Assembly (NCBI GenBank): GCA_030432565.1
Contig: JAUIGV010000010.1
Location: forward strand, 1-64,000
Length of the DNA stretch: 64,000 nt
Direction: 5' to 3'
Origin: Verrucomicrobiia bacterium
Lineage (GTDB): Bacteria; Verrucomicrobiota; Verrucomicrobiia; Verrucomicrobiales; Akkermansiaceae
Of this stretch, positions 37,161-41,833 are shown piece by piece. Below the pieces are notes generated by a model. That model saw only the letters and a list, made by a program, of their open reading frames with translations. It was not told the DNA's origin and searched no databases. Position 1 is the stretch's first letter. Each line of letters opens with the position of its first letter. Both the position numbers and the translations under genes were made by a program.

Positions 37161-38870
37161 TTACTCGGCCCCCAAATCGGTCGCGGTCACCGAGACCACT
37201 TCTTCGATGGTAGTCACGCCCTTCATGACCTTGTGCCAACCATATTCCCTCATGGGCACGTAGCCATCCTTGATTGCCTGGGCCTTCAATGTTGGAGAAT
37301 CAGAATTCTTGGCGACAAGCTCTTCCATGGCGTGACCGATAAGAATTACTTCGTAGATGGCCAATCGTCCCGAGAAGCCGGTATTTCGGCACTTGTCGCA
37401 ACCAACCGGCTCATAAGCCTGTCCCGTGATTTGATCCGGGATTCCCAGTCGCATCCGCTGATCCTGTGGCACTTCCACCGGACGTTTGCAGTTACCGCAG
37501 AGGCGCCTCACCAATCGCTGGGCAAGAAACGCGCGGACCGAAGCTGCCACCAGGAACGGTTCGACGCCCATATCAACCAATCGACTAATGCCCCCGAGCG
37601 CATCGTTGGTGTGCAAGGTCGAGAACACAAGGTGACCCGTCAAGGACGCCCGGATTGCGATCTCTGCAGTCTCAAGGTCACGAATCTCACCAAGCATCAC
37701 GATGTTCGGATCAGCTCGCAGAATCGACCGGAGGCCGCTCGCAAAGGTCAACCCGATCTCACTCTTCACCGCGATCTGCATCACCCCCTCGAGTTTATTC
37801 TCAACCGGATCCTCGATCGTGACGATACGGGTATCGGAAGTGTTCAACTCACTTAAAAAGGAATAAAGACTGGTTGATTTACCGGAACCCGTTGGGCCGG
37901 TAATCAAAATAATTCCGTTGGGAAGACTAAGGATACTCTTAATCTTTTTTAGCACGAAGTCTTCCATCCCAAGGAGTTCCACGTTGAACTTCTCTTGGTT
38001 CAAAAGACGCAAACTGACCGACTCACCTTCCACCGTTGGCACTGTGGCGACACGAACGTCGATCGAGGCTCCCTCGAATTGAAGGTTGATCCGACCATCC
38101 TGGGGAAGCCGACGCTCGGCAATATCGAGCTTGGACATGATCTTAAGACGGGCGATCACTGAAGACTGAAGCGACTTGATCTGATCAGGGACGGCAATAT
38201 CGATCAACCCACCATCAACGCGGTAGCGAATCCGGAGATTGTCCGCCAAAGGCTCCACGTGAATATCCGTGGCCTTTTGATCAAGGGCTTCACGGATAAT
38301 TTGGTTCACAAACTTCACCACGCTGGCCTCCTCGTCCTCGACCTCGTCAATGACGCTGGCTTCGTCTTTCATCTCGAGATTATCGAGATCAAGATCGCGC
38401 CCTTCGAGAAGCTGTTCAAAGGTATCGGCACCAACCCCGTAAAGTTTTCGAAGTGCCTCGTGCACCCGACGGCGAGAGGCCATATGCCAAACAATCGGCA
38501 TGTCGATCGCCTGCGCCGCCGCTTGCCGGGCCATCAGATTCAGCGGATCGTAAGTCGCCATGTGCAAACGGGCGTTTTCGCCTTCGCCCTCGATCTCGAG
38601 TGGAAGAACGCGATGCTTCAGAGCGACCTGTGGCCCGCAAGCAGCCCGGAGCGGCAGTGGACTTTCGAACGCCGCAATCTCGGCAAGCCACTCCATATGA
38701 AGATCCTGTGAGAGGTGCTCCATATAGGGCTCCTCGTCAACCAGACCACTGTCCAGAATATCATCGAGAGGGGAACTTTGGCGATGGCTGGCTTCGTCCA
38801 CCGCTTCTTGGAGGGCGGGAAGATCAGTGCACCCTGTTTCGCGGGCAGGCTTGAGAAGGAGCTCGGTCAT
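37161..38870 (-). CDS. Type II secretion / type IV pilus assembly ATPase (GspE/PilB family)
   Basis: The chosen start is the ATG at 38870 (MTELLLKP), giving 569 residues. A longer frame to 39011 would run into the 6S RNA candidate and is unconserved. It has an MshEN-type N-domain, then the ATPase with Walker A GPTGSGKSTS, the Asp and His boxes (DIHVEPL; LGEIRDLETAEIAIRASLTGH) and a tetracysteine zinc site (CGNCKRP...CDKCRNTG). It powers pilin polymerisation or pseudopilus secretion. Pilin genes and a PilT retraction ATPase are not in the window. Confidence 0.94.
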   Translation of the reverse strand: MTELLLKPARETGCTDLPALQEAVDEASHRQSSPLDDILDSGLVDEEPYMEHLSQDLHMEWLAEIAAFESPLPLRAACGPQVALKHRVLPLEIEGEGENARLHMATYDPLNLMARQAAAQAIDMPIVWHMASRRRVHEALRKLYGVGADTFEQLLEGRDLDLDNLEMKDEASVIDEVEDEEASVVKFVNQIIREALDQKATDIHVEPLADNLRIRYRVDGGLIDIAVPDQIKSLQSSVIARLKIMSKLDIAERRLPQDGRINLQFEGASIDVRVATVPTVEGESVSLRLLNQEKFNVELLGMEDFVLKKIKSILSLPNGIILITGPTGSGKSTSLYSFLSELNTSDTRIVTIEDPVENKLEGVMQIAVKSEIGLTFASGLRSILRADPNIVMLGEIRDLETAEIAIRASLTGHLVFSTLHTNDALGGISRLVDMGVEPFLVAASVRAFLAQRLVRRLCGNCKRPVEVPQDQRMRLGIPDQITGQAYEPVGCDKCRNTGFSGRLAIYEVILIGHAMEELVAKNSDSPTLKAQAIKDGYVPMREYGWHKVMKGVTTIEEVVSVTATDLGAE

Positions 38871-38966
38871 GTGTGGAATAAGTATCGATAAAACGCTCGC
38901 TGTGGAAAGTTCTGTCTGTGCGAATGTCGATGAATTCAAACTTTTCGCAAGCATCGTGATTTTCGT

Positions 38967-38995
38967 TTGCGCAATTGGCGCCAGAAGACTACTCT
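38967..38995 (+). promoter_or_regulatory. Candidate promoter of the 6S RNA gene
   Basis: Plus-strand TTGCGC (38967-38972), 17-base spacer, TACTCT (38990-38995). A start about 7 bases on falls at 39002-39003, exactly where the predicted RNA closing stem begins. That agreement is the main support. Confidence 0.45.
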
Positions 38996-39002
38996 CATGC
39001 AT

Positions 39003-39175
39003 CTGCCTCATACGCCAGAAGTGGTTGATTGGCCGACCCGATATTATTAAAAATGGGGGTGGCCCCGGAGAGTCAATGTCATGCCTTCACTGGAAGACAG
39101 CGACTTGATGGATACCCCCAACCTATTGGGCTTCGGGAATGCGGCTCATGCGCCACGGACGGTGAGGCAGTAAAC
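39003..39175 (+). ncRNA. ssrS: Candidate 6S RNA
   Basis: The stretch folds as one long interrupted rod. The closing stem CTGCCTCA (39003-39010) pairs perfectly with TGAGGCAG (39163-39170). Inside it pair 39021-39024 with 39153-39156, 39032-39034 with 39143-39145, and CCCGA (39037-39041) with TCGGG (39133-39137). A symmetric bubble of 13 bases on each side follows (39042-39054, containing TATTAT; and 39120-39132). An apical arm opens with GGGGGT/ACCCCC (39055-39060/39114-39119). A rod of this length with a central bubble that mimics an open promoter is the hallmark of 6S RNA, which binds the housekeeping RNA polymerase. No covariance search was run. The same pairing could form on the minus strand, but promoter and terminator placement favour plus. 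Confidence 0.62.
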
Positions 39176-39177
39176 TT

Positions 39178-39207
39178 AAAACCCGCTCTGTTATGGAGCG
39201 GGTTTTT
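39178..39207. terminator. Bidirectional Rho-independent terminator
   Basis: AAAACCCGCTC (39178-39188) pairs with GAGCGGGTTTT (39196-39206) around a seven-base loop. A run of T follows on both strands. On plus it lies 8 bases after the 6S RNA closing stem. On minus it follows the 39227-41833 gene by 20 bases, so it probably serves both. Confidence 0.85.
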
Positions 39208-39226: not shown

Positions 39227-41833
39227 CTACCGGACCGGAAACTCTCCGGATTGGAACCGGCGACGCTGTTGGTGGAGCTCCCAGCGGCTTGAGGCACGAC
39301 CTAAAACCTCGTTTTTTATGGAGCGGGCGCTCCACTTCAAGGCCTCTCCCCGGTTCTTGCGGGCAAAATACACCTCGCCCATGGTGTCGAGATAAGCTGC
39401 CGACTGGGGCCTCATCTCCAAAGCCACCTTCAGGTATTCCTCGGCCTCATCCAGGCAACGATTCGCCCGAGATGCCAACCAGGCGAAGTTGTTGTAGGCA
39501 TTGTCATCTTTCGGGAACATCCGGATCACCTCGCGCGCAAATTCCGCCGATTCGGCAAAAAGCTGGTCGTGCAATTCGATCAAACCGACCTCCCGAAGCA
39601 GCGGAAAGAGCTCATTGGCGAGATAACCATCCCGGGGGAGAATCCGGTGGGCTTCTGAAAAAGCCTTCACCGCACCGCTAATATCATCGTTCTCCATTGC
39701 AACCGCGCCCCGGGCCACAAGAACCTGGAATCGATCCCTCATCAAAAAAATCCCCCCGGTCAAACCTGCGTAACTTGATACCACCGAAGCGACCTCGCGA
39801 TACGCCAATGCTTCACGCCATTTGCCCAACGTCGCCGCCCCAGCGGAGAGCCCCTCGACGACATCGTCAATCCCGCTGTAGTCGCCGGGAACAGGAATGA
39901 TCTCGCTCCTCAAAAGCGCCGCCCGCAAGCTTTGGTGGCTCTGATCGAGAAGCCCCACCCGGAGCTGCTGTGCTGCAATCGCCTCGAGTTCCTCCACTGT
40001 CCCTGACGAAAGAATTCGCGAGCGTTCAATCACTTCCTGCCATCCTTCCTTGCGCGCCAATTGGAAGGCGAGCCCCCTTTGCATCATGAAAATGGAACTC
40101 ACAGACCCTGGTTCGAATTCCACCCGCTCCAAACAGGAAATGGCATCATCAACCCTGCCTCCGTCCAGCGCGATGAGGTAACGGAGGAAATTGTTGTCAA
40201 ATCCGAGATTGGCCTGTTCTTCACAGACACGAAGTAAATCATCCTCCCGATTGCGGTATTGAAGAATCTGAAACATGTTCTTGAGGCCATCGAGAGCATT
40301 TTCTGATTTGAGGATGAACGAAACGACCTGATTGAAGACTTCATCGTATCTCTCGGGAGTCACCAACAAGTGACGATTGGAAAATGAACACGTCAGCGCC
40401 AGCCGTTCGCGCATCGGAATCTCCGGCATCATTTCGCCGAGAAGATTGAAGGCCCAAACATGCTCTTCATCACTGTAAAGCATCTCACCCAAAAAGACCG
40501 AAGCGGTCGCCTCGTGCTCTTCAATCTCATTGGCAACCGCAGTCACCACCGCGAGCGGGGCCGAGAAATACATCTCGCGGGCCAAGGCAGAATGACTGAT
40601 GTCGGGTTTCCCTCTGGCGGCATCAAACACGGCCAAAGCCACTTTCCCGGCGTCCCCGACTCTCCCTCGTCCTTCTAGAAATTCCACTGCCGCAATCAAG
40701 CGATCAGTCTCGATCCCGCGCCCTTCGTTTTCCAACTCACCCGCGACCTTGGGAGAATGGGCCGCGATCCAGGCCTCAAGTTTCGAGGAATCCGGAACAC
40801 CAATAAGGTCCTGTGCCTTCACGTAATCCTCCTGCATCAGATAATAGCTAATCTTGACTCCCAGATAACTCTCTCCCAATCCTTCAATGACTTCGTTACC
40901 CCTGCCCATGCGGAATAAATTCATCCGGGCCTCGCGCTCCTCGCTGTCCTGCTTGCTCAGATAGAGAACCGACTCGTAGGCCTTCTGCCTGACTTCCACA
41001 TCCCCTCTGTGATCGGCAAGGGTCCACTTGATGTAATTCTGCATCGGCAAACCAAGTTTCCCGATTTCCAGGAGATACTCGAAGTAGGGCTCATGATCGC
41101 CTTCCACCAGCGCCGCAAGCACCTCGGCGGGACGATCGCCCAATCTCACGGCCTCTTTTCTAAGCAAAGCGGCATCTCCTTTCACCCGCAGATACGCCAG
41201 ATAACGTTCCGAATTCTCCGCCCCCCCTTCTTTTCGAAGGCGCTCCAATTCCTGATCCAGGCCACCCGTCACATCAAGAAGATGCCCAAGTCGGATCATG
41301 TGATCGTACTTCTCGCTCAAACCAAGAGTCTCCTTTGCCTCATCAAACTGATCGTCATTCAGATAATTCCGGACGATTCGAGGCATGTCCTGGGCAATCA
41401 TGACATCCATTCGTGAAACGACTCGAGTACTCTGCTCGCCCCGACGCAACCTCAGGATAAAATCAAACTCCTCGAGCGAGCGTAGTTTCTCAAGCACGGC
41501 AATGCGACCGCGAGGCGACGACTCCAAATACTGATCAATCAACGCCACCACCTCCTCCGGAGTATCCGGAGTAATTCCAAGGCGAAGCTTTTGACTCACA
41601 ACGGATGCCCGCGCCGCAATCTCCGGGTCTTCGGATTTAGAAAGTTCTTCGAGAAAAGAAAGCGCATCCTCCCCACGCTCCCAGACTTCACGCATTGCCT
41701 TCACGCGAACCTCGTAGTCCTGAGACCCCAGGGCCTTGCCCCATTTCGCCTTCTGGCCGGGAGTGATTTCCAATGCCGAAACCAAAAGACCCGATGCAAG
41801 AAGCAGGTTTAGAAAAACGATGACCTTACTCAT
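39227..41833 (-). CDS. Large exported HEAT/TPR repeat protein
   Basis: About 868 residues from the ATG at 41833, which gives a clean signal peptide (MSKVIVFLNLLLASGLLVSA). A 15-residue upstream extension was rejected. The first 100 residues include HEAT-like helices (EVRVKAMREVWERGEDALSFLEEL). Most of the rest is helical repeat sequence, and a clear tetratricopeptide run lies near the C-terminus (AVKAFSEAHRILPRDG, DNAYNNFAWLASRANRCLDEAEEYLKVALEMRPQSAAYLDTMGEVYF). It probably acts as a periplasmic scaffold. Its partner is not evident. Confidence 0.82.
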   Translation of the reverse strand: MSKVIVFLNLLLASGLLVSALEITPGQKAKWGKALGSQDYEVRVKAMREVWERGEDALSFLEELSKSEDPEIAARASVVSQKLRLGITPDTPEEVVALIDQYLESSPRGRIAVLEKLRSLEEFDFILRLRRGEQSTRVVSRMDVMIAQDMPRIVRNYLNDDQFDEAKETLGLSEKYDHMIRLGHLLDVTGGLDQELERLRKEGGAENSERYLAYLRVKGDAALLRKEAVRLGDRPAEVLAALVEGDHEPYFEYLLEIGKLGLPMQNYIKWTLADHRGDVEVRQKAYESVLYLSKQDSEEREARMNLFRMGRGNEVIEGLGESYLGVKISYYLMQEDYVKAQDLIGVPDSSKLEAWIAAHSPKVAGELENEGRGIETDRLIAAVEFLEGRGRVGDAGKVALAVFDAARGKPDISHSALAREMYFSAPLAVVTAVANEIEEHEATASVFLGEMLYSDEEHVWAFNLLGEMMPEIPMRERLALTCSFSNRHLLVTPERYDEVFNQVVSFILKSENALDGLKNMFQILQYRNREDDLLRVCEEQANLGFDNNFLRYLIALDGGRVDDAISCLERVEFEPGSVSSIFMMQRGLAFQLARKEGWQEVIERSRILSSGTVEELEAIAAQQLRVGLLDQSHQSLRAALLRSEIIPVPGDYSGIDDVVEGLSAGAATLGKWREALAYREVASVVSSYAGLTGGIFLMRDRFQVLVARGAVAMENDDISGAVKAFSEAHRILPRDGYLANELFPLLREVGLIELHDQLFAESAEFAREVIRMFPKDDNAYNNFAWLASRANRCLDEAEEYLKVALEMRPQSAAYLDTMGEVYFARKNRGEALKWSARSIKNEVLGRASSRWELHQQRRRFQSGEFPVR

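Follow-up and report, generated by a model that had tools for sequence, protein, structure and literature searches.

Comparative evidence for a divergent, single-copy 6S RNA gene in a member of the Akkermansiaceae

6S RNA is a well-known small RNA that clamps bacterial RNA polymerase when growth stops, and is a global regulator of transcription. It is produced in abundance, and its level typically increases in stationary phase. It is defined as an RNA of ~160-200 nt that forms a rod with a large central bubble between two helical arms (PMC8414754). Members of the family bind the polymerase holoenzyme as mimics of an open promoter and are released through the synthesis of product RNAs (PMC8414754, PMC8876501, PMC11077062). 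The product RNA starts at U44 in E. coli and at nt 40 in B. subtilis, both in the 5' strand of the bubble (PMC8876501). The actinobacterial Ms1 and CoRP are polymerase-binding RNAs that resemble 6S RNA and measure ~300 and ~500 nt, respectively (PMC11077062). Core polymerase is the partner of Ms1 and, for the most part, also of CoRP. Our literature search for 6S RNA together with Verrucomicrobia or Akkermansia found no direct report.

We analysed a 64,000-nucleotide stretch of an Akkermansiaceae (Verrucomicrobiota) genome, referred to here as the window. The region 38999-39176 on the plus strand is very probably ssrS, the gene for 6S RNA, present here in a single copy. These coordinates delimit the modelled core. 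A preliminary description of the DNA had proposed an unannotated 6S RNA here, and a full-length family match, covariation and homologues in relatives all support that identity. The RNA is an ordinary 6S RNA, of a known kind, in a divergent Akkermansiaceae version. Only the gap in annotation is new.

The Rfam 6S model RF00013, the check suggested in the preliminary description, aligned over its full length (model positions 1-187) with 38997-39177, though its 29.3 bits fall below the gathering score of 46.4, which is a curated threshold for annotation and not a biological feature. The E-value was 3.3e-4 in a 471-base scan at a relaxed threshold and 9.8e-4 genome-wide. This was the one RF00013 match in the whole 5.9-Mb genome, across which a search for a second copy found none. 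We attribute the low score to sequence divergence. At the gathering threshold, two tRNAs are the sole Rfam reports in the window. The stricter filters of one search of many genomes with RF00013 also left this copy unreported. The RNA resembles the E. coli ssrS type in its full-length alignment, its ~178 nt, its own promoter and its single copy, and in a rod with the central bubble between GC-rich arms. It differs in its divergent sequence (29.3 bits against the cut-off of 46.4), in a conserved apical motif and in its divergent arrangement with pilB.

At minimum free energy, 38967-39207 folds into a single long rod of -97.6 kcal/mol (z = -4.62), and none of 200 shuffled sequences was as stable. 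The two strands of the closing, or downstream, arm (39003-39041 and 39133-39170) pair with each other, as indicated by the consensus fold and pair counts. At its base, CUGCCUCA (39003-39010) and UGAGGCAG (39163-39170) pair without a mismatch, in agreement with the eight-base pairing of the ends noted earlier. The central bubble is formed by a 5' strand at 39042-39053 (UAUUAUUAAAAA) and a 3' strand at 39121-39132 (ACCUAUUGGGCU), the latter seen in both the minimum free energy and consensus folds. The preliminary description was right about the nested stems, the symmetry of the bubble and a TATTAT on its 5' side, which lies at 39042-39047. It gave the size as 13/13, whereas the fold gives 12/12 because U39054 pairs with A39120. 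The upper, or apical, arm spans 39054-39120, as placed by the alignment and consensus fold, and carries the conserved motif GUCAUGCCUUCACUGGAAGACAG in its tip. The core of ~178 nt, the rod and the large central bubble with two flanking helical arms fit the definition of 6S RNA.

A rod with a bubble does not by itself reveal which form of polymerase is bound, and Ms1 and CoRP share this outline with 6S RNA (PMC11077062). The RNA could then be a 6S-like RNA with another partner, binding wholly or mainly core polymerase. We consider this very unlikely. The sequence is homologous to RF00013, and an Rfam scan with E-values up to 10 matched no other family of polymerase-binding RNAs. Both Ms1 and CoRP are also longer than the RNA described here: its core of 178 nt, with ~205 nt between promoter and terminator, fits 6S RNA and not the ~300 or ~500 nt of the actinobacterial RNAs.

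The 6S RNA is conserved within the genus. DNA similarity searches gave a match in 25 of the 26 other genus genomes, and 24 of them have the RNA. In one genome (G023, 61% complete) the match covers only a terminator-like stretch, and it was not counted as a carrier; another (G011, 81% complete) gave no DNA similarity match. The match starts near the RNA in several genomes, and the spacer upstream is not conserved. We aligned the window with the 24 genus members that carry the RNA. RNAalifold placed 49 pairs in this alignment, again as one rod, and 98.4% of the cells across the 25 sequences and 49 consensus pairs can pair. When the partners were slid, pairing fell to 27-45% of cells. The preliminary description had made the identification depend on covariation in the stems among related genomes. 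Two-sided changes were found in 17 of the 49 pairs, against 7.8 in shuffled alignments, and in 68 cells against 18.6. None of 500 shuffles reached the observed counts, although kinship among sequences can by itself give counts above such shuffles where no structure exists. The slid-partner control and the large excess make an account by kinship alone unlikely. Closing arm, lower arm and apical arm all contain two-sided changes, as does the stem above the bubble.

R1, a covariance model made from the genus sequences alone, allowed a comparison independent of Rfam; it matches the window's copy by construction. The test set consisted of 30 loci elsewhere in the class (L032-L061) with RF00013 scores above the cut-off. 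For 21 of them R1 gave a full-length match at the same coordinates, and E was below 0.01 in 18 of these. The other nine were not recovered at full length, and one of the loci (L046) gave only a short partial match. R1 matched 52 of 60 family genomes, nearly always once per genome. Its matches coincide with sub-threshold Rfam matches in the family (for example in G084, G093, G102 and G032, and in G075, where R1 gives 2279687-2279869 and Rfam 2279686-2279871). RF00013 itself matched 106 of 141 genomes in the class and 60 of 115 in the phylum, 37 of the latter above the cut-off. Several nearly complete genomes in the class and phylum, from the genera g38 and g41 and the family f52 (for example G070, G073 and G232), had no RF00013 match; their 6S RNA may be lost or may only have diverged. 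The reciprocal and class-wide matches indicate that the window's RNA belongs to a class-wide, single-copy 6S RNA family.

The window's own family stands apart in its scores. Matches exceed the Rfam cut-off in 74 of the 141 class genomes, whereas all 18 family genomes with an Rfam 6S match score below it, so that annotation at the cut-off omits the gene. The genus-level model mends detection in this family, whose 6S RNAs the curated threshold misses. Together with a corrected prediction of the product RNA, it provides a concrete target for deletion and a product RNA to look for.

The preliminary description had placed a promoter so that its start coincides with the 5' end of the RNA. We found a -35-like element, TTGCGC (38967-38972), and a -10-like element, TACTCT (38990-38995), separated by 17 nt on the plus strand. 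The pattern TTGC-N16/17-TAnnnT lies equally far from the RNA in all 27 aligned sequences (the window, 24 of the genus and two of the family), and occurs only seven times on both strands of the whole window. Judging from the -10-like element, transcription is expected to start at about 39001-39003, in line with the earlier placement. Measured against the sigma-70 consensus the promoter is weak, and a mechanical sigma-70 scan of the region at 9/12 found no promoter.

The strong terminator described earlier was also borne out. It is an intrinsic terminator at 39178-39207 (plus strand), AAAACCCGCTCT-GTTAT-GGAGCGGGTTTT-T, with a 12-bp hairpin (39178-39189 with 39195-39206), T at 39203-39207 and a folding energy of about -22 kcal/mol in the window's copy. 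The aligned relatives keep the hairpin with differing stem sequences, except for one locus that ends at the contig end (L003) and one that folds weakly there (L031). A consensus terminator scan of the region did not list it, probably because the U-tract is drawn into the stem. Comparative evidence replaced consensus scans for both promoter and terminator, which together bound the RNA at ~205 nt. The next open reading frame, on the minus strand, ends at 39227 and is convergent with the 6S gene. Lying between these convergent genes, the symmetric A-stem-T hairpin may terminate both of them. A series of weak Rfam matches (Thr_leader, Leu_leader and rnk_pseudo) was rejected, as it covers only this hairpin, on either strand.

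On the other side, the 6S gene is flanked by the divergent pilB (37161-38870, minus strand). In the 22 loci where pilB lies next to the RNA, the window included, the alignment always has the methionine at 38870 as residue 1. In many relatives (L004, L007, L008, L010-L015 and others) stops interrupt the frame upstream of 38870. A longer pilB frame, reaching 39011, would run into the 6S gene and is unsupported on both grounds. The start at 38870 given in the preliminary description therefore stands, chiefly because of the upstream stops; the 6S RNA, which was offered there as the explanation, speaks by itself only against starts upstream of ~39003. A conserved block lies upstream of pilB at 38870-38925 (minus strand), with CAGACAGAACTTCC ... 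CGTTTTATCAATACT shortly before the ATG. Most genus members keep this block within an otherwise unconserved spacer. It may be a promoter or leader of pilB.

These surroundings bear on whether the structured RNA instead serves a downstream gene as a cis-regulatory 5' leader or lies within a coding frame. Plus-strand open reading frames of 87-93 aa do overlap the RNA, and the terminator hairpin, with its weak Thr_leader match, is attenuator-like. However, the strong terminator is followed by a minus-strand gene, and no plus-strand gene lies directly downstream. The sequence changes preserve base pairs, and the RNA is kept in three genus members where pilB was not found within 1.5 kb upstream (L016, L025 and L026). 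A leader or coding frame is thus scarcely credible. That the region holds only chance palindromes and a bidirectional terminator, as generic promoter and terminator scans at chance level might suggest, has a negligible probability. Covariation and the reciprocal search with R1 refute it, and the fold z of -4.62 and the single homologues across genus and class also speak against it.

With the locus read as a 6S RNA gene, its mode of action can be proposed from the family. We infer expression from the gene itself, given the conserved promoter and terminator. The RNA would be made from its own sigma-70-type promoter, starting at ~39001-39003 and ending at the hairpin at 39178-39207. The rod with its 12/12 central bubble would imitate an open promoter and, in slow growth, bind the RNA polymerase holoenzyme that carries the housekeeping sigma factor. 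Starting at about U39042, the polymerase would then copy the 5' bubble strand and the lower arm into short product RNAs, whose synthesis would open the lower arm and release the enzyme. Holoenzyme binding and release are both inferred from other 6S RNAs.

The preliminary description had expected product RNAs to start in the 3' strand of the bubble. This does not agree with known 6S RNAs, whose products are copied from the 5' strand (PMC8876501). U39042 does not vary across the genus alignment and lies at position ~40-42 of the RNA, which matches the start at nt 40 in the B. subtilis 6S-1 RNA, also a rod with a central bubble (PMC8876501). U39042 is the expected template start, predicting a product RNA that begins 5'-AUCGGGUCGGCC..., and more fully 5'-AUCGGGUCGGCCAAU.

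A candidate release hairpin was found at 39127-39148 (plus strand), where 39127-39132 in the 3' strand of the bubble pairs with 39143-39148. It forms in a fold constrained to keep the lower arm's 5' strand single-stranded, the state expected in a hybrid with the product RNA. Among genus members 93% of its cells pair; it shows no two-sided changes, and 450 of 500 shuffles were as high. This hairpin may form once the product RNA occupies the 5' side of the lower arm. Such a hairpin on opening of the lower arm would resemble the release hairpin of E. coli 6S RNA (PMC8876501). The B. subtilis 6S-1 RNA is released with a central-bubble collapse helix, whereas the constrained fold here favours the candidate 3'-bubble hairpin.

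The motif in the tip of the apical arm (39076-39104) is nearly invariant. Its consensus, GUCAYGCCUUYAYUGGAAGACWG, is strongly conserved and common to the 6S RNAs of Verrucomicrobiales. It seems rather improbable that the motif marks a lineage-specific contact, with a sigma surface or another protein, beyond open-promoter mimicry. A degenerate 23-base form of the pattern was found in 57 stretches of the genome collection. The titles of the matching records that name a lineage are all from Verrucomicrobia, including Prosthecobacter and Chthoniobacter, and one title reads only 'Bacterium'.
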